A DNA stretch of 64,000 nt, taken from contig NZ_JAELTQ010000002.1 in the NCBI RefSeq assembly GCF_016428905.1, positions 1 to 64,000 on the forward strand, in the 5' to 3' direction. The position numbers were made by a program, and so were the translations under genes. Of this stretch, positions 17,410 to 25,605 are shown piece by piece (positions within the stretch are counted from its first letter, which is position 1; each line of letters begins with the position of its first letter). This DNA is from Dyella sp. ASV24 (lineage in GTDB: Bacteria; Pseudomonadota; Gammaproteobacteria; Xanthomonadales; Rhodanobacteraceae). The notes under the pieces are model-generated. The model did no database searches. It was not told the origin of the DNA and saw only the letters and a list, made by a program, of their open reading frames with translations.

Positions 17410-17798
17410 CACTTCTTCCTTGATGGGTGCAATGGTTCGGCTTACTTGTCGCCTCCAAGTCGGTAGGCGATGGCCGGTCTCCGAATCAGGATGCCTTCCC
17501 GATAGGAATCGTGAGGAATCTTAAGGGAAGCGTCAGTGCGGATCGACGGTTTGGGCGGTCCTTAACGGCCCGTGGCAAAGGTTAGGGGTGTCGACAGCAA
17601 CTGACGAAATAACTTAACTCTGTCACCAAATGCAAAGATTTGAATAGATTGATATTTGCCTCAGCGGAGTGCGAGAGGCAATCGCGTCAGTGCCATTGTT
17701 AAGGACTTTACCGATGGCCAGTGACAGCTTTACTAACCCATCTAGGACGACTCTGGTGACAACCTTGCCTGTGGTTGGGTGACTTTATGGCCTTACAC
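17410..17798. other. Intergenic region at the left edge of the nuclease island
   Basis: No gene is visible in these 389 bp. Near the right of the rhodanese promoter region there is a short direct repeat of GGAATC (17504-17521). The segment GTTAGGGG at 17581 leading to GTCGACAGCAAC at 17590-17601 recurs at the right edge of the island. GTTAAGG also occurs at 17698. The base composition falls sharply towards AT from about 17600 onwards, consistent with the boundary of acquired DNA. Confidence 0.5.
17590..17601 (+). repeat. Left-flank repeat of the island
   Basis: GTCGACAGCAAC is identical to the copy at 22666-22677. Both are preceded by GTTA(A/G)GGG-type sequence and followed within 2-5 nt by TGACG. 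The two copies bracket the low-GC three-gene block, so they may be remnants of an integration or duplication event. Alternatively they may be copies of a dispersed intergenic repeat. Confidence 0.5.
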
Positions 17799-20000
17799 CT
17801 ATTCGCCAGAATCTCGTTTGCGCGCGGCTCCTGTGCCCCAGTCAACAACGAAATTGCTTGCTGACTCCAGGATCTCGAACTCCTCCAGCTTCGCTTGAAA
17901 CATCCTATCCCTGACTCGATCGAGGTACGATCCAAACAGAAAGTCCGGTACGTTCCAGGCACCCACAAAAGCGACAATTCCTGCCAGGACAGCGCCCAAG
18001 TACGGAAGCCAAGGGTGGTTCTTGGAAAAATATTCCACTCCGAAGAGACCTGCTATCGCCACGCAGATCGCTATGCCGGCGGAGATGATGAACTGCTTTT
18101 GTCGCCGCAATTTAAGCGCAGCTGCGGCGCTTCTGGCCACTAGCTTCCGTATGACTTCATACTTTTGATCTCGTTCGACTTCGGCCAGTCGCGCTGACTC
18201 TTCTTGCGCACTTCGTGTTCCTTTTAATTGATCCTTGATCTGGAGAGTCTCGGCTTGTGCCTGGAGGAACCTTTCGTGAATTGATTGCTGCCCACGCTCC
18301 AGTTCGTCAACTTTGCTTGCGTGTTCTTCGGAGATCTTGGAAAGAGCTTCGTCGTGTCGACGCTGAAGCTTACGTTCCATTGCCTGTTCTATCTGGTCAA
18401 AAGTCTCAAAGGCGTCTCCGCTCGTTTGAATGAGGGCGGCGTCGCCAAGCGTGTATTGCATTAGGTATTGACCAGCTCTTTCGTTGGTCATCAATGATCG
18501 AAAGCGTGTTGCCTTTGTTTCATCCATGTCGCCCAAGAATTTTTGTACCTTTGCAATGACGTCAGTACGTGCTTCGAGCGCTGCCGTGCAGTTGGCAAGG
18601 AGACGGTACTCAGTCAGTTCGTCGGTCTTTCCGCCGAAAACTACCCAAAGTAGTCCGGCAAGAAAGCGATCAGTCAATGCCGGTGGCACTTCGCTATCGG
18701 TGTTGATGTTTTTAGCTTTCACGCACGCTGCAGCTCTTTCAGCTAGCCAAGGGTTGGCGGTGATGAAGAGGTAGCTGCTGCTGTTGAACTGGCTCATCTT
18801 TACGTGTATTCCGCGGCGAAGACGTATTGTTGAGGCGATTGATGATGCGTCTCTTGTCTGTGCAGCGGGGTTAGTGAAGAATCCCAGTGATGCGCGGAAC
18901 GATTCTTCGTCGGCGTCGGTGAAGTACGAGTAGCTCGACGGATGCTTTGGTGTGTCGATGATCTTTATTTCGAGATCACGAATGGCTGCGTCCACATCAC
19001 GCATTACTGAATGTGCATATGCTTGAAACGTTGCATTCGATAAGCGGCGGGCAGTGGGGCCAAAGCCGATTCCAAGTGACCTGTTCTGAGCGACAGCTTT
19101 GAGGTTGATCTGAATCTCTTCTACTGAGTGGCGAAAAACCGCTATTGATGCTCCGTGGTCCTTCAGCATCTTGTGTATGCGGCTCGTATATCCAGTTGAC
19201 TCCTCGCTGCTTAGGTCGAGCAGCGACATGACAAATGGGCCATCGAAAACGACAGTTAGGCTGTTTAGCTTGATGTCGGTTTTTGGGTCTTGGACGTTGA
19301 GTATTACTTCCGATATCAGCGCGCCGCTAGCGATCCGCACCAACAACTCATAAGCGGATCGATCATTCTCAAAGAGATCGACAATGAAGGATGCGCACAA
19401 GACATCAAGTTTAGATTGCCGGGCAATTTTTGCTTGCCAGGCAATTTTCTCATCGCTTTGAGGGAGTGAAAGAGTTCTTGATGAGGTATCGGTGCCAGAT
19501 TTCGCTTGGGGCTTCAGTAGTATGGATTGGAAATTAGTGGAGACGAGCTGGTTGAGAAAAGCCTTCTCTAGATCTTGGGCGTCTAGAGTGATCTCATGTG
19601 AGCCCATGAGCTGTTGTGCGTAGGTCACAAATCGCTGCACGATCAGCCGAATGTCTGCCTCCGACACGGCATCGAAGTCACCGGGAATTTCGGCATATAG
19701 GTACGCCTCAGTCGCGGATCCCGCTACTCGTATAAGCAATCCTGCGGCCTCAAGTCTGCTCGCTAGGTCATCAATCGCCCAAGGATGTACTTCGATGCCA
19801 TAGAGGCTGCGGACGAGTTTCGAGAACTCTTTCGCATCAAAAGGCTCGCCAACGCGGTCGCGGCAGATGGGCTTAAATATTGGGGCTAAGCCAGTAAGAA
19901 GGTCGCCGCTCGCGTGTTTGGTCTGAGCCAGAAAGGCGTACGCACGCAGTGGCCTATCCACTGTGCGCTCATCATTGTCGAACAGCGAGATAGAAGTCAT
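17799..20000 (-). CDS. PIN-like / coiled-coil / membrane protein of unknown function
   Basis: This 733-aa protein starts at ATG 20000 behind AAGGGG. Residues ~20-110 look like a helical or winged-helix region (FDAKEFSKLVRSLYGIEVHPWAIDDLASRLEAAGLL). Residues ~245-420 have the pattern of a PIN-like nuclease: VVFDGPFVMSLL (Asp253), FRHSVEEI (Glu294/295), RDASSIASTIRL (Asp384) and LFITANPWLAERAA, the usual place of the late Thr-x-Asp motif, here Thr-Ala-Asn. A coiled coil rich in Glu/Gln/Arg spans ~532-625, and two membrane helices at ~637-655 and ~667-683 anchor the C-terminus. Codon use and GC are unlike neighbouring housekeeping genes. It is divergent from the CBS-HEPN gene. A membrane-tethered nuclease effector is an inference; the family was not recognised. 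Confidence 0.65.
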   Translation of the reverse strand: MTSISLFDNDERTVDRPLRAYAFLAQTKHASGDLLTGLAPIFKPICRDRVGEPFDAKEFSKLVRSLYGIEVHPWAIDDLASRLEAAGLLIRVAGSATEAYLYAEIPGDFDAVSEADIRLIVQRFVTYAQQLMGSHEITLDAQDLEKAFLNQLVSTNFQSILLKPQAKSGTDTSSRTLSLPQSDEKIAWQAKIARQSKLDVLCASFIVDLFENDRSAYELLVRIASGALISEVILNVQDPKTDIKLNSLTVVFDGPFVMSLLDLSSEESTGYTSRIHKMLKDHGASIAVFRHSVEEIQINLKAVAQNRSLGIGFGPTARRLSNATFQAYAHSVMRDVDAAIRDLEIKIIDTPKHPSSYSYFTDADEESFRASLGFFTNPAAQTRDASSIASTIRLRRGIHVKMSQFNSSSYLFITANPWLAERAAACVKAKNINTDSEVPPALTDRFLAGLLWVVFGGKTDELTEYRLLANCTAALEARTDVIAKVQKFLGDMDETKATRFRSLMTNERAGQYLMQYTLGDAALIQTSGDAFETFDQIEQAMERKLQRRHDEALSKISEEHASKVDELERGQQSIHERFLQAQAETLQIKDQLKGTRSAQEESARLAEVERDQKYEVIRKLVARSAAAALKLRRQKQFIISAGIAICVAIAGLFGVEYFSKNHPWLPYLGAVLAGIVAFVGAWNVPDFLFGSYLDRVRDRMFQAKLEEFEILESASNFVVDWGTGAARKRDSGE

Positions 20001-20244
20001 TCCCCTTTTCCCCTGGTTTTTCAAGATGTTTGAGTGCGATTCTGATCCTTCGCCAGTCGTTATGCTAGAGCAGGCGGGCAGCGGCGACCGTGCGCGCCAG
20101 ATAGTGTTCCAGAGTGGCGGTCTCGATAGCATTTGGTCGTGCTGCCCCGGCGCTGTGCTCTCGGGTACCGAGTGCATCACCCGGCGCTACATGCTGCCCG
20201 AACCTTGGAGATATGGTCGCCATTGGCGCAAAAGGGGAAAGGTA
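20001..20244. promoter_or_regulatory. Divergent promoter region between the PIN-like and CBS-HEPN-like genes
   Basis: These 244 bp separate two divergently transcribed island genes, so they must hold both promoters unless transcription comes from outside. The ribosome binding sites are clear on each side (AAGGGG before 20000 on the minus strand, AAAGGGGA before 20245 on the plus strand). No confident -35/-10 pair or operator palindrome was found. A shared intergenic space is compatible with joint control. Confidence 0.4.
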
Positions 20245-21126
20245 ATGGGGTATCAGCTTTGGACCTCACCGGTCACTGGGTATCGGCGCCATGGCACGCG
20301 GCTGTCGGATTTCAACAGAGCGCTAGGAGACCGGCTCACTGCACGCGACATCTGTGAACCTCTCCAGTCTTGCCCATCTGACGCGCCCAGCCCTGACATG
20401 GCGGCCATTTTGCTGAGGCGTGAATTTGATATTGCCGGTGTGCGGAATGAACCCCACGGCCCCGTCATCGGTTGGGTTAGACAACAGGACCTGACAACAG
20501 GCCAAGTATCTGACCATGTGCGCATCATCGCTGATGAAGACGCTATTGATGCCACAACGCCTCTCCGTGAGCTCTTTGATTTATTCAAAGAGAGAGCATT
20601 TGTATTGATACGTGTGGACGGGTCCTTGAATGCCATATTGACACGTGCCGACCTCAATAAGCCGATGGTGCGTGTCTACCTTTTTGGTCTCATCTCCTTG
20701 CTGGAGATCCATATGGGATTCTGGGTCGCAAAAGCATATCCAGGCGATGCATGGATGGCTTTATTGACTGAGAGCCGCCTGCAAGCTGCGGAAGCGCTGC
20801 GAGCAGAAAGAGAGGCCGCAGGACAAGGCCTTGACCTGCTTCAGTGTCTCCAGTTTTGCGATAAGCAAAAGCTCCTGATAGCGCATGACGAGACACGTGG
20901 CGCACTGCAATTGGATTCCAAAAGTGCGGCAAAGAGCTTCCTTGGCAGTGTGGAAGGGTTGAGAAATTCACTGGCGCACAGCCAGTACGACTTGACCGCT
21001 GGAGGCTCATGGATAGCGCTCATCGAGCTAGTCGATTGTGTTCAGGCGACCATCGCTGTTTCCGACGAGATGGTGGAGCACCATGCGCTGGCGACAGCTA
21101 CAGACGATATCGGTGCGCTCTGGTAG
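20245..21126 (+). CDS. CBS-domain protein with C-terminal HEPN-like RNase motif
   Basis: This 293-aa protein starts at ATG 20245, 6 nt after AAAGGGGA; longer in-frame starts read through non-coding sequence. Residues ~28-140 look like a CBS pair: LTARDICEPLQSCPSDAPSPDMAAILLRREFDIAGVRN, GPVIGWVRQQDL, then TPLRELFDLFKERAFVLIRVDGSLNAILTRADL. CBS pairs usually bind adenosyl nucleotides. The C-terminal half is helical and contains LRNSLAHSQYDL, with Arg240-Asn241 and His245, the R-x4-H motif of HEPN ribonucleases. A nucleotide sensor joined to a HEPN RNase would suit a stress- or phage-triggered toxin. Both domain calls come from motif reading. Composition is lower in GC than the core genes. Confidence 0.6.
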   Translation: MGYQLWTSPVTGYRRHGTRLSDFNRALGDRLTARDICEPLQSCPSDAPSPDMAAILLRREFDIAGVRNEPHGPVIGWVRQQDLTTGQVSDHVRIIADEDAIDATTPLRELFDLFKERAFVLIRVDGSLNAILTRADLNKPMVRVYLFGLISLLEIHMGFWVAKAYPGDAWMALLTESRLQAAEALRAEREAAGQGLDLLQCLQFCDKQKLLIAHDETRGALQLDSKSAAKSFLGSVEGLRNSLAHSQYDLTAGGSWIALIELVDCVQATIAVSDEMVEHHALATATDDIGALW

Positions 21127-21178
21127 ACCTCAAACCCGGCCGCGACGTCAAACGCTGCGCCCATGATTATCGAAACTT

Positions 21179-22330
21179 TTATGTTGAGTCCGAGTCGACG
21201 TCGAGCTGGATTTGCTCCCAACCTGAAGGGCGAGGAGGTCGTTCGCCACGTGGAATGAAGATTGGAATGTCGCGTTGCCAGGAGCCGATGCCCTTTACAT
21301 CTAGGGCAAATCGAACCTTTCGCCAGTCAGATTGTTGGTCCGTGTCCAGCAGTTGCACATCATCTACACGCAAAACACTCTGCAGCGGAGTGCGCGGTCG
21401 GTTGATCGAAGTATCCCGATACGGGACGGACGAAAGACGAATGACCTCTAGTTTCATCAAGCGTCGGAGCCACGGCGAGTCTGCAAAGTCGTCAAAGTAT
21501 TCCTTCAGCCGCGATCCGGCTCGTGGATGAAAGGGTGACTCACCCAGCAATAGCGACAGGCTGCTCTTGATGATTTGCGGCAGCGCGTCTGTTCCGGAGA
21601 CCATGGTCCAACCGCCGTTGGTCAAAAAGATGTCATTTGCTTCATTTGTGGCCAGTGTCTTGCCGAGTTGATGTGCATCGATACGGGGGAAGCTCTCAAC
21701 CACTCGGCATCTCACCATGATGCCACTGCCATCCCGAGTCCATGACGGCTTATCGGCGAGTTGTCGCCCATCCCCAAAGGCATTGATGAGGAGATAGCGG
21801 TGGAAAGGGTCCAAGTCTCCGAACTGCTCGCTGAGCCTGATGAGCTCATGAAGATCGCCCTCAACAAAGTGATCTATTCGGATCGACCAGTCGCGGCCAG
21901 AAGTGCCGAGTAACTCACCCACACACGTAATATTGGGCCCAATGGCTATGAGGTCCGATGCCCGATATATGCCCCGTCCCGCGTTTAGGGCAATGGCAAT
22001 CTGCGCTTCATGTTCTCTTTTGATTCTCGAGAGAAATTCACACGTGTAGTGAGCGACATCGCGGTCTATTTCGACGCTGTGATTGGCACAGAGCCAAATG
22101 CCGTTGTGAATATTCTTTCGCTCGGCAGGCGCCATGTTCGGATCGTAACGCGGGCCTTGTGCGGCTGCCCTTATGTGTGCGGCGACACCTATATTGATGA
22201 CAGCTTCCTCACTCTCGTCACTGGGACCTACGGTGAGGATGCCGCAGCCGGGCATGGAGCATTGAAATCCAGCACGCATAGCAAGATGCATGCGAGTTTT
22301 CTTGTTGAATTCGTCCCTGGCATTCGGCAC
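21179..22330 (-). CDS. HNH endonuclease-domain protein
   Basis: This 383-aa protein has an N-terminal HNH domain (residues ~14-90): FQCSMPGCG (Cys24, Cys29), AAHIRAAAQGPRYDP (His52), then NIHNGIWLCANHSVEID (Asn76, Cys81, His84). The cysteines and last His would bind structural zinc while His52 is the general base. The remaining ~290 residues form a soluble domain of unknown type (WSIRIDHFVEGDLHELIRLSEQFGDLDPFHRYLLINAF and further). The GTG at 22330 is about 10 nt after AAAGG and gives a complete domain; ATG at residue 14 is an alternative. It converges on the CBS-HEPN gene with a 52-bp gap. Nucleases of this HNH type often occur in defence islands. Confidence 0.75.
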   Translation of the reverse strand: MPNARDEFNKKTRMHLAMRAGFQCSMPGCGILTVGPSDESEEAVINIGVAAHIRAAAQGPRYDPNMAPAERKNIHNGIWLCANHSVEIDRDVAHYTCEFLSRIKREHEAQIAIALNAGRGIYRASDLIAIGPNITCVGELLGTSGRDWSIRIDHFVEGDLHELIRLSEQFGDLDPFHRYLLINAFGDGRQLADKPSWTRDGSGIMVRCRVVESFPRIDAHQLGKTLATNEANDIFLTNGGWTMVSGTDALPQIIKSSLSLLLGESPFHPRAGSRLKEYFDDFADSPWLRRLMKLEVIRLSSVPYRDTSINRPRTPLQSVLRVDDVQLLDTDQQSDWRKVRFALDVKGIGSWQRDIPIFIPRGERPPRPSGWEQIQLDVDSDST

Positions 22331-22696
22331 CGCGGCTTACCTTTGGCTATGGGTTCGACGCAAGTTTAGAGCGACCTGGGGTCACCGCCCCTCCTGCCGC
22401 ACACAGTAGATAGCTGTCAGATCGAATGGCTGTAAGAGCGGACGCTGGCACGTCCCTTACTCCGAATTGCGGCCACAACCCATTTGGAGGGTTGAGCGGT
22501 GGCCAAGTCCTGGATAGCAATTCTTTACCTAAGTCGTTAAAAAATGGCCCCTGGCGGAGGCGTTCAATTGTGACGAGAGCTGAAGGATGCGTGGGAAAAG
22601 ATGTGCAGTGCCTGCGTTAAGGGCCAAGGCCAGGGTTATAGGCGCCAATGCCAGAGTTAAGGGCCGTCGACAGCAACGTTGACGCGATCAGGGGGC
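22331..22696. other. Intergenic region at the right edge of the island
   Basis: No gene is visible. From about 22616 there are two and a half copies of a degenerate ~20-bp tandem unit beginning GTTAAGGGCC (22616), GTTATAGGCG (22635) and GTTAAGGGCC (22656). The first two copies end in GCCAG. The last copy runs into GTCGACAGCAAC (22666-22677), which matches the left flank. The promoter of the copper regulator begins at 22697. Confidence 0.5.
22616..22677 (+). repeat. Right-flank tandem and island-border repeat
   Basis: GTTAAGGGCC-type units start at 22616, 22635 and 22656, spaced 19 and 21 bp. The terminal 12 bases, GTCGACAGCAAC at 22666-22677, are identical to the left-flank copy at 17590-17601. 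They may be a recombination site, or an intergenic repeat family that happened to bracket the insertion. Confidence 0.5.
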
Positions 22697-22728
22697 TTGA
22701 CTCTGGACCTTGATCAAAGGTCTAGACT
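22697..22728 (+). promoter_or_regulatory. MerR-type long-spacer promoter of the copper operon
   Basis: TTGACT (22697-22702) and TAGACT (22723-22728) are separated by 20 bp rather than 17. The spacer contains the dyad ACCTTGATCAAAGGT (22707-22721). This is the classic arrangement bound by MerR/CueR activators, which untwist the overlong spacer when metal is bound. The -10 element ends only 7 bases before ATG 22736. Confidence 0.75.
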
Positions 22729-22735
22729 TGGCCCC

Positions 22736-23161
22736 ATGAACACTCCCAACACTTCCATGACCATCGGGGCGGTCGCGCGGCGGGTCGGCGTGGCGATCGA
22801 CACTATTCGTTACTACGAGCGGGAAGGGCTGCTGCCGGAACCGTTGCGACGGGCGTCTGGCTATCGCAGCTATGACGAGGGCGCGGTGCGTCAGTTGCGC
22901 TTTATCCGGCGTGCGAAGGACCTAGGCTTCACGCTTGAGGAGATCCGCGACCTGCTGACGCTCTCTGCCGATCGGCACCGCGGCGTAAAGGCGGTGAAGA
23001 AGCGCGCGGAAGAACGCCTTGCTGCTATCGACGAGCGCATCGCGGAACTGACCCGGGTGCGCGACGGATTAGAGCAACTGATCGAGGCTTGCCCGGGTCA
23101 CGGCTCGCCGGAGCAGTGTCCGATCCTGAAGGCGTTGACGGACATGGAGGATGAGGCATGA
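22736..23161 (+). CDS. cueR: MerR-family copper-responsive regulator (CueR-like)
   Basis: This 141-aa protein has an N-terminal winged helix, [31 protein letters not shown] with [37 protein letters not shown], a long dimerisation helix ([31 protein letters not shown]) and the C-terminal metal loop [10 protein letters not shown]. Two Cys spaced by 8 residues is the pattern of Cu(I)/Ag(I) sensors. ATG 22736 lies immediately downstream of the long-spacer promoter with no ribosome binding site, so the transcript may be nearly leaderless. It is coupled to the copper ATPase gene by ATGA. The exact metal is inferred from the target gene. Confidence 0.85.
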
Positions 23162-25605
23162 GCATGGAAGAACACGCCTGCTGCAGCGCTAAGCCGCAGC
23201 CCGAGCCCGAAGTGAAAGCTTCCTGCTGCAGTGGGAAGACTGCTGCAGCTCCTGTGCAGCATCACCACGAACATCATCATCACGATCACGGCACACACCA
23301 TGATCATGCTGGAACGGCCGCGAAGGATCCCGTATGCGGCATGAGCGTCGATCCAGCCACCGCCAAGCACCAGATCGAGCATGAGGGCCAGACGTTCTAT
23401 TTCTGCGCCCAGCGTTGCAAGGAGAAATTCCTCGCCGATCCAGCGCGTTATCTGAACCCGCCCAAGGAGCCATCACCGGTGCTTGCCGGGGCCATTTACA
23501 CCTGTCCCATGCACCCGGAGGTGCAGCAGGTGGGGCCGGGGCATTGCCCAAAGTGCGGCATGGCGTTGGAACCGATGATGCCCAGCCTCGACGAGGATGA
23601 CGGCCACGAGCTGCGCGCCATGTCGCGTCGTTTCTGGACGCTTGTCGCGTTGACACTGCCGGTGTTTTTGCTGGCTATGGGGCCGCATCTATTTGGCTGG
23701 CACCTGCCGACTCCGTGGGATGGTGTGGCGGCCTGGGCAGAGGCTGTGCTGTCCACGGTCGTCGTGCTGTGGGGTGGTGCGGTATTCTTTGCGCGTGGCT
23801 GGCAGTCGCTCAAGCCCTGGTCGCCGAATATGTACACGCTCATTGCGCTGGGTACGGGCGTGGCGTGGCTCTACAGCGCGGTGGCGTTCCTTGCGCCATC
23901 GCTGTTCCCGGCGGGCTTTCACGATATGCATGGCCGTGTGGGCGTCTATTTCGAATCGGCCGCCGTGATTGTGACGCTGGTGACGCTGGGTGATTTCCTG
24001 GAGCTGCGTGCGCGTCGACGTACGGGTGCTGCGCTCAAGGCTTTGCTGGAACTGGCGCCAAAGACGGCGCGTCGCGTGGGTGCCGATGGAAGCGAGCACG
24101 ACGTGCCGCTTGAGGACGTGCATGCTGGCGACACATTGCGTGTGCGACCGGGCGAAAAGGTGCCCGTGGATGGCGTGGTGCTGGATGGTGGTAGCCACGT
24201 CGATGAATCCATGCTCACGGGTGAGCCGCTGCCCGTAGGCAAGGCCAAGGGCGACCGCGTCACCGGCGGCACGGTGAACCAGGACGGCGCCTTGCTGATG
24301 CGTGCCGAGAAGGTAGGTGCGGAAACCATGCTGTCGCAGATTGTCTCGCTGGTCGCGCAGGCACAGCGAAGCAAAGCACCGCTGCAACGCGTGGCAGATC
24401 GTGTTGCGGCGTGGTTCGTGCCTGCCGTGGTTGCGGTGGCGGTGTTGGCGTTTGCGCTGTGGGCCTGGCTTGGCCCCGATCCTAAGCTCGCCTATGCGTT
24501 GATCTCGGCGGTGTCGGTGCTGATCATTGCTTGTCCCTGTGCGCTGGGTCTTGCCACGCCGATCTCCATCATGGTGGCGAGTGGGCGGGCGGCGCAGAAC
24601 GGGGTGCTGTTCCGAGACGCGTCAGCCATCGAGTCGCTACGCGATATCGACACGCTGGTAGTGGACAAGACCGGTACATTGACCGAGGGCAAGCCGGCAC
24701 TGAAGGATGTGGTGAGCCTGGGCGAGTATCCACGTGTGCAGTTGCTTGCGATGGCGGCGGCATTGGAGCGTCCCAGTGAGCATCCGTTGGCTCGGGCGAT
24801 TCTCGCCGGCGCTGCATCGGAAGGGGTGGTGGTTCCGGCGGTCGCGCATTTCCGCACCTTGACCGGCGCTGGCGTGGAAGGCGAAGTGGACGGACACGCC
24901 GTGGCACTGGGCAATCTGCGTCTGCTGTCTAACGCAGGTGTGCAGCCTGACGCAGCTGCCTTGGCGAAGGCCGATGCGTTGCGCAGCGAAGGCGCGACGG
25001 TGATGTTCCTGACGGTCGATGGCGCACTCGCCGCTTTAATCGCGGTGGCCGATCGCGTTAAGGCGAGCACGCCGCAGGCGATTCGTGACCTGCATGCGGC
25101 TGGCCTGCGCATCGTGATGCTGACTGGCGACAACCTCGCTACCGCGAACGCTGTCGCTGCCACCTTGGGTATCGACGAAGTGCAGGCGGATGTTTCGCCC
25201 GCCGACAAGGCCGCGGTGATCCAGCGGTTGCGTGCACAGGGGAGGCGCGTAGCGATGGCTGGCGACGGTATCAATGATGCGCCCGCACTGGCGCTGGCCG
25301 ACGTTGGCATCGCCATGGGTAGCGGCACCGACATCGCCATGGAAAGCGCACAGGTTACGCTGGTGAAGGGAGAGCTCACTGCCATCGTGCGTGCACGCAC
25401 GTTGTCACAGGCGACGGTAAAGAACATCCGCCAGAACCTGTTCTTTGCCTTCGTCTACAACGCCGTGGGTGTGCCGCTGGCAGCCGGCCTGTTGTATCCG
25501 CTGATGGGCGTGCTGCTGTCGCCTATGGTCGCTGCGCTGGCCATGAGCCTGTCTTCGGTATCGGTGGTCAGCAATGCCCTGCGGCTGCGCCGCGCGGCCT
25601 TGTGA
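23158..25605 (+). CDS. copA: Copper-translocating P1B-type ATPase with YHS and heavy-metal-binding N-terminal domains
   Basis: This 815-aa inner-membrane pump starts inside the merR stop; ATG 23164 is an alternative. The N-terminus has two CC motifs ([14 protein letters not shown]) and a His/Asp cluster at ~38-50, then a YHS domain ([21 protein letters not shown], ~55-100) and a heavy-metal-binding domain ([21 protein letters not shown], ~114-140). It lacks a GMTCxxC ferredoxin-like domain. Eight membrane helices follow the P1B plan, with the transport motif [10 protein letters not shown] at ~457. Catalytic motifs are [15 protein letters not shown] (Asp ~502), SEHPLA, GDN and [10 protein letters not shown]. 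It would export Cu(I) or Ag(I) under control of the linked MerR regulator. Confidence 0.93.

Follow-up and report, generated by a model that had tools for sequence, protein, structure and literature searches.

A low-GC island of three putative nuclease genes in Dyella, one of which joins an HNH domain to a sheath-initiator-like domain

Three adjacent genes, each with a different nuclease-type signature, lie at positions 17,799 to 22,330 of a 64,000-nucleotide stretch of DNA from Dyella sp. ASV24, referred to here as the window. Do they form a compact three-gene device, as a first-pass annotation had suggested, or are they independent arrivals in a hotspot, the alternative mentioned there? The genes are arranged as follows:

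17799-20000, minus strand: gene A, 733 aa counted from an ATG (the mechanical ORF has an alternative GTG start at 20180)
20245-21126, plus strand: gene B, 293 aa, with GGGGAAAGG preceding the ATG
21179-22330, minus strand: gene C, 383 aa, start codon GTG

Genes A and B are divergent and separated by 244 bp; B and C are convergent and separated by 52 bp. The three genes, and all of the residues that the first-pass annotation had named (D253, E294, E295 and D384 in A; R240 and H245 in B; C24, C29, H52, N76, C81 and H84 in C), were found where it had placed them. The composition of the region is foreign, as had been proposed: at 53.3% GC, 17799-22330 lies below all of 998 segments of equal length taken off the island in 50-base steps (58.6-66.3%), and is the lowest for its size within the window. 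An 81-bp match (80%) was seen between window positions 20074-20153 and locus L023.

Co-occurrence of the three families was analyzed by tblastn in loci L001-L041 and L042-L084 and in eight further whole genomes. The genomes drawn represent a sample, and distant relatives can escape tblastn, as did the known B relative L027 in the L001-L041 scan. Outside the window's own genome, no locus among L001-L084 contained two of the three families, and none of the eight genomes contained two full families; the sole partial exception was genome G265, with an A relative and a 36-residue fragment of C. A single device, in which the CBS-HEPN protein, the membrane PIN protein and the HNH protein would act jointly, agrees with the adjacency of the genes, with their similarly low GC content (A 51.5, B 54.6 and C 54.3%) and with their divergent (A/B) and convergent (B/C) orientations. 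However, no shared operon exists, and close relatives of each gene occur without the others. The three-gene system was rejected because no examined locus or genome elsewhere carried two full families, and joint action of the three proteins is most improbable.

The first-pass annotation had held that its proposal would be contradicted by homologues that never occur together and are not enriched in defence islands. The former was observed for the full families (L001-L084 and the eight genomes). The latter was not: as judged from individual loci, members of these families are present in defence or mobile contexts. Relatives were found in prophages and near CBASS, Wadjet, type I R-M and integrases; some, e.g. 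L042 and L043, have no obvious defence surroundings. The occurrence of several relatives of each family in such contexts supports the anti-phage roles suggested for these genes, and the alternative of independent arrivals fits better. In our best reading, with a probability of about 0.72, the island comprises three mutually independent anti-phage modules of one gene each, carried as mobile cargo near a merR-type gene in Dyella; each would pair a putative nuclease with a sensor or anchor of its own. All three modules would halt or kill the infected cell.

Gene A had been described as a PIN-like membrane protein. It consists of a tentative winged-helix-like N-terminus, a PIN-like core at residues ~245-430 (D253, E295, D384, T414-x-N416), a coiled coil and two hydrophobic C-terminal segments, located by hydropathy at ~634-659 and 663-689; hydrophobic stretches near the C-terminus were also present in the five relatives compared. 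Residues D253, H291, E295, D384, T414 and N416 are invariant in six of six sequences. The acids in PIN order are D253, E295 and D384 in all six, with Asn416 at the fourth position throughout. The core residues, coiled coil and hydrophobic segments of the earlier description were thus recovered, but Glu294, proposed as an alternative to Glu295, is not invariant among the six.

The Pfam family PIN_3 matched two of six A relatives (3.4e-4 and 5.9e-4, below the cut-off) over the first Asp and the Glu; the window's own A gave no PIN_3 match. The AF2 model of A was poor (pLDDT 49), and its Foldseek matches were winged-helix and VapC chains with E > 0.1. Comparison of A with PDB sequences, viral contigs and phage records gave no useful lead. 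One A relative is located near a type II CBASS locus; another is terminal on a prophage contig bearing tail genes.

The PIN-type acids are common to A and VapC of the VapBC systems, but inspection by eye recognised no antitoxin adjoining A, which is flanked by B on one side and, beyond the island end, by a rhodanese-like gene on the other. A one-protein PIN defence, DefensePredictor DS-3, is among the systems that PMC13092281 validated in E. coli (2026) and can be likened to A by its description, having PIN-type acids as in A. The PIN domain of DS-3 is split between the two termini of that protein (PMC13092281), whereas A has a coiled coil and, at its C-terminus, two hydrophobic segments, with Asn in place of the last acid. 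A may be a membrane-held PIN-type RNase that would stay off until infection.

Gene B contains a CBS pair at residues ~20-135 and a C-terminal region with R240-N-S-L-A-H245, a HEPN-type R-x4-H motif. Both elements of the first-pass description held. The CBS match has an E-value of 0.024 for B alone, as low as 1.8e-5 for relatives and 1.2e-4 for a profile against CBS structures; Pfam CBS did not match L087, a 48% relative of B. At the sequence level the HEPN-type motif is supported by the invariance of R240, A244 and H245 in five of five sequences, and the residue that follows it is N or D, as in PMC3710099. No HEPN family match was found for B. The PIN fold of A and the HEPN fold of B are predictions at the level of residues and motifs, the folds themselves being not solidly modelled.

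One B relative shares 4 bases with an hsdM gene of the same orientation, and another adjoins PDC-M36A with an integrase nearby; viral contigs and phage records gave no useful lead for B. The same 2026 study (PMC13092281) validated in E. coli a CBS-HEPN defence in one protein, DefensePredictor DS-11. By its description, DS-11 is like B in combining CBS with a HEPN-type motif in a single protein; Tyr157 of DS-11 is without an assigned counterpart in B. B could be a HEPN RNase whose activity is controlled by a nucleotide bound to its CBS pair.

Two domains were delimited in gene C:

21972-22330, minus strand: HNH domain, residues 1-120, Cap5/PDC-M68A-like
21240-21670, minus strand: gp25/sheath-initiator-like domain, residues ~221-364, recognised by PDB profile, PHROG, and AF2 with BFVD

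The second of these was absent from the first-pass annotation, as were the transposon-like ends of the island (see below). The HNH domain proposed there was confirmed: its proposed zinc-type residues C24, C29, H52, N76, C81 and H84 are kept in nine of nine sequences, PADLOC gave matches of 7.4e-26 and 1.4e-18, and Cap5 chains were among the structure matches. A SAVED domain in C was ruled out because no match extends past about residue 142 (PADLOC matches by residue 137; PDB SAVED-HNH matches cover ~4-142). Like the CBASS effector Cap5 (HNH-SAVED), C has this type of HNH domain at its N-terminus and a similarly sized putative sensor behind it, but its C-terminus matches sheath initiators and not SAVED, and no CD-NTase is found among the three island genes (no PADLOC match to a cyclase in A or B, both scanned).

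Taken together, the island genes are an ordinary set of defence type, and the most telling feature is the gp25/DUF2634 sheath-initiator C-terminus of C. By homology, C is a putative HNH nuclease fused to a relative of a contractile-tail baseplate part. A PDB profile search with this C-terminus (best 1.6e-4) matched tail sheath initiators and baseplate wedge proteins, the alignment to sheath initiators and wedge subunits of the baseplate spanning residues ~221-300. PHROG baseplate families matched seven of seven C family sequences, and PF10934 (Sheath_initiator) matched 3/9 and 5/12 family members (best 5.4e-4); the window's own C had no Pfam match to Sheath_initiator. The AF2 model of C gave named baseplate-wedge and Gp25-like matches in BFVD (prob 1.00, TMt 0.58-0.60, none with E < 0.001); Foldseek E-values were all > 0.001, and the PDB top 50 contained no gp25 chain. 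Compared with a sheath initiator proper (gp25, DUF2634, PF10934), the copy in C lies behind an HNH domain and a middle region, falls below Pfam detection in the window, and has no phage tail operon around it.

In P2-EC46, Z-region ORF2 (AJ512680) is a C relative (42.7% over 94% of length), annotated as a putative lysogenic conversion protein in records that show no function. It differs from C in its P2-type prophage setting with ORF1 alongside, the E. coli counterpart of ORF1 being annotated as Lit-family. An E. coli C relative, whose RefSeq names support the sheath-initiator/gp25 homology, likewise lies in a P2-type prophage, between a tail sheath gene and a Lit-family exclusion gene. That prophage has its own gp25 gene too, and a tail-sensing nuclease would therefore need self-tolerance. 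Elsewhere, C relatives follow integrases and, in genome G017, a Wadjet operon. E. coli searches with L050 and L051 gave no useful lead.

The gp25 fold is also used outside tails, in IraD. The domain might accordingly be a general binding module, with C triggered otherwise than by phage tails; IraD/Gp25-like names among the matches and the separate gp25 of the P2-type carriers agree with this, but at the sequence level the matches were tail sheath initiators and baseplate wedge proteins, not IraD itself, and the gene sits among tail genes in P2-type prophages. We regard this as possible but doubtful. C might also serve a prophage against its rivals by spoiling tail assembly, the HNH domain being secondary or used in the carrier's packaging or replication. 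The lysogenic conversion name in P2-EC46 and the position between tail sheath and exclusion genes would suit such a role, which is nevertheless unlikely given the invariance of the HNH residues in 9/9 sequences and the occurrence of relatives outside recognised phage, e.g. after the Wadjet operon.

C probably senses phage tail assembly. As an HNH DNase, it could bind baseplate partners of a contractile phage through its gp25-like domain, or be built into the baseplate; its HNH domains would then be brought together and DNA cut, by analogy with the ligand-driven assembly of Cap5. More tentatively, C may typify a class of immune receptor, a DNase with a captured phage tail part as sensor, for which the six-fold baseplate of the invading phage, joined or docked on by the gp25-like domain, would be the platform that gathers HNH domains, the decoy subunit also spoiling tail assembly.

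To our knowledge, few bacterial sensors are known for the tail-assembly stage. Should C use a copy of the phages' own sheath initiator to recognise them, it would offer directly testable immunity by structural mimicry, with an HNH effector tied to contractile-phage tail assembly, and a mechanistic lead for the "lysogenic conversion" gene of the P2 Z-region. Literature searches for an HNH and sheath-initiator fusion found no evidently relevant paper. A "phage baseplate protein" domain does occur in an E. coli defence system validated in 2026 (PMC13092281). C shares a baseplate domain with it by description and would be a mechanistic lead for this domain too; the system may or may not belong to the C family.

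The ends of the island were recognised by short repeats:

17589-17710, no strand assigned: left end, TGTCGACA then TGACGAAATAACTTAACTCTGTCACC, with similar sequence in the relative G004
22606-22670, no strand assigned: right end, three repeats of the CAGTGCC..GTTA.GGGC type at spacings of 19 and 21 bp, then CGTCGACA, upstream of merR

Integron attC sites were considered and discarded, since at the right end the three repeats form an array with regular spacings (19 and 21 bp). The ends show arrays of short repeats at a fixed site, as in Tn7-like transposons, but the island has no recognised transposase gene: the three genes fill the space between the ends, with no TnsA/B/C or TniQ, and inspection by eye of the sequence upstream of merR in nine relatives revealed none. 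In the best reading, the transposon-like ends enclose a small region of mobile cargo adjoining a merR-type gene. Decayed cargo with no present function would fit both the lack of a recognised transposase and the persistence of the end repeats upstream of merR, with different neighbours, in nine other genomes of the genus. This is quite unlikely, however, as all three frames are intact and the catalytic residues are kept.

The three ORFs of the low-GC island (17799-22330) were found where the first-pass annotation had placed them:

17799-20000, reverse strand: gene A, PIN-like
20245-21126, forward strand: gene B, CBS with HEPN-type motif
21179-22330, reverse strand: gene C, HNH
17589-17710: left island end
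22606-22670: right island end, upstream of merR

All residues named for the three proteins were in place. The GC content of the island, described as atypically low, was 53.3%, below every one of 998 windows of the same length not overlapping it (58.6-66.3%).

The same annotation had proposed that A, B and C form one compact abortive-infection device, and this proposal was not borne out. In tblastn searches over comparison loci L001-L041 and L042-L084, two of the families occurred together in the window's genome only; the scan was not exhaustive and missed a known B relative in L027. Among 147 genomes of the family, A was found in one (the window's own), B in two and C in 13 (own included in both counts), these draws having left out genomes G009, which carries A, and G017, which carries C; the match to C extended beyond about residue 135 only in the own genome and in G438. 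Eight chosen genomes showed A in G009 and G265, B in G312 and G024, and C in G017 and G438, the sole overlap being a 36-residue C fragment in G265. A was present in 2 of 369 genomes of the class and B in 4 of 398 of the phylum (own included in both counts), one of these four being weak and with a stop. Plasmid records contained A in 8 cases, B in 3 and C in 162, five of the C matches covering at least 80%. We hold that A, B and C are separate one-gene modules.

Residues 1-120 of C are an HNH domain matching the PADLOC CBASS effector (E 1.4e-18) and candidate family PDC-M68A (E 7.4e-26). CBASS Cap5 has the same kind of HNH domain, and Cap5 chains in the PDB matched C by sequence and by fold (fold: probability 1.00, E 4.2e-3). 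A 12-sequence profile of residues 120-383 alone was compared with all PDB sequences. Up to E 1 it matched nine chains, the best being a baseplate wedge subunit (1.6e-4), followed by a pair of sheath initiators (5.4e-4 and 5.8e-4). Six chains carry the name baseplate wedge, sheath initiator or gp25-like; Phi92_gp139, gp87 and a putative tail lysozyme make up the remainder. All seven C proteins matched PHROG tail families (best E per protein 1.9e-9 to 1.9e-4), unlike the window's A and B. Pfam Sheath_initiator was detected in 3/9 and 5/12 family members (two sets) and not in the window copy of C. Of the RefSeq records for the E. coli relative, four name it DUF2634 and one names it GPW/gp25 family protein.

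The AF2 model of C, built from nine sequences, had a mean pLDDT of 69; 20 of the 23 ten-residue blocks in 131-360 exceeded 70 and the HNH part was weak. Against BFVD the model matched named baseplate-wedge and Gp25-like proteins (probability 1.00, TM-scores 0.58-0.60), no match having E below 0.001; the highest TM-score, 0.70, belonged to an unnamed protein. The PDB top 50 included no gp25 chain. Because residues about 126-211 (window 21698-21955) resemble YcgR-N / PilZ-type barrels by Foldseek (5y6h, probability 0.85, E 0.03), the middle part of C may form a third domain.

Near-whole-protein matches to C were obtained in ten of 40 viral-contig loci. An integrase gene (PHROG 1) lies directly upstream of the C relative in L045 and L048, and the same arrangement was judged by eye in L050 and L052. 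In L047 tail sheath and tail fibre genes flank the relative, and the L047 gene is present (at least 99%) in 5 of 5426 E. coli genomes. In strain 4621, it has the tail sheath gene on one side and a Lit-family exclusion gene on the other, within a prophage that also carries a gp25 gene of its own. ORF2 of the Z-region of phage P2-EC46, annotated as a putative lysogenic conversion protein, is a 42.7% relative of C.

L101 488-3119: region with the C relative in the P2-EC46 Z-region
L102 6037-8668: region with the C relative in E. coli strain 4621

P2-type phages are described as carrying anti-phage hotspots, in an account that concerns the old-tin locus and not the Z-region (PMC9122126). In G017, a Wadjet operon, whose JetA, C and D were confirmed by PADLOC, precedes a 52% relative of C, and a 2TM-effector / CD-NTase-like cyclase pair comes after that relative; the same Wadjet-like neighbours were judged by eye in G438. 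The position after a Wadjet operon was seen in two genera (L023 5189-15019; L089 8291-16342).

The gp25-like domain of C is proposed to dock on, or to be built into, the baseplate of an invader, and either event would activate the HNH domain. Two objections to such a tail sensor stand open: the self-tolerance of prophage carriers, and the other uses of the same fold. No description of an HNH and sheath-initiator fusion was found in the literature searched, and the DefensePredictor report mentions "a phage baseplate protein" among its newly validated defence domains (PMC13092281), which may be the C family. C is therefore a new variation on the HNH-plus-sensor plan; the island is otherwise unremarkable.

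For B, the window copy by itself gave a weak CBS match (E 0.024), and its relatives ranged from none (L087) to 1.8e-5 (L005); a five-sequence profile matched CBS structures (best E 1.2e-4). R240, A244 and H245 were invariant in all five sequences, and the residue following R is N or D, as stated for HEPN RNases in a source that also describes fusions of HEPN with CBS and raises ligand-gated RNA decay as their possible role (PMC3710099). The 48% relative in G312 adjoins PADLOC candidate PDC-M36A (E 6.7e-45), with an integrase one ORF beyond. In G024 a 25% relative of CBS-HEPN type opens a type I R-M operon (L088 3755-7962) and shares four bases with hsdM. A haloarchaeal relative lies about 4.5 kb from a restriction gene. 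DS-11 of DefensePredictor is reported as a one-protein CBS-HEPN system protecting E. coli, protection being lost on changing HEPN residues or Tyr157 (PMC13092281).

Six A sequences (window, G009, a gammaproteobacterial MAG, Arthrobacter, Enterococcus and Sporosarcina) could be aligned over their length, with 18-45% identity to the window copy; D253, H291, E295, D384, R393, R395, T414 and N416 were invariant. Two of the six, Arthrobacter and Enterococcus, matched Pfam PIN_3 in stretches containing the first Asp and the Glu, with E-values (3.4e-4 and 5.9e-4) that do not reach the curated cut-off; the window copy gave no PIN match. The AF2 model of A (four input sequences) was poor (mean pLDDT 49), and Foldseek with it returned winged-helix regulators (probability up to 0.97) and VapC-type PIN proteins (up to 0.95), all at E above 0.1, a result only in agreement with the sequence evidence. 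A 45% relative lies at the end of a 40-kb prophage contig with tail genes (PHROGs 52 and 76), read as P2-type. By eye, no nameable defence system adjoined the A relatives in L042 and L043. A recombinase gene separates the Sporosarcina relative from a type II CBASS locus some 1.2 kb away.

The sequences that bound the island are related to each other and have TGTCGACA and CGTCGACA cores; on the merR side there are three repeats, spaced by 19 and 21 bp. A like array lies upstream of merR in 9/19 other genus genomes, as judged from the reach of the sequence match, and all nine stretches have at least two repeats near merR; the loose repeat pattern also matches elsewhere by chance, and it is the spacing that carries weight. 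In another comparison, of nine loci, the array was absent from four. The left-end pattern occurred in 2/20 genus genomes, the own and G004, and G004 has a junction of both end types at another place. The merR site looks to have been used repeatedly by an element, perhaps a Tn7-like one; no transposase was recognised by eye upstream of merR in nine genus relatives. That the island is decayed cargo we regard as very improbable.

In the nine genus genomes with transposon-like end repeats upstream of merR (L090-L098), the neighbouring genes differ between genomes; L090 has two arrays in tandem. Part of the A/B intergenic region (20074-20153) matches G017 at 80% over 81 bp (L023 4042-4122), where an unrelated ORF ends. 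The genes that follow the island (22679-25605) were named by eye as MerR-type regulator and P-type metal ATPase; nine relatives in the genus conserve them at 77-89% DNA identity.
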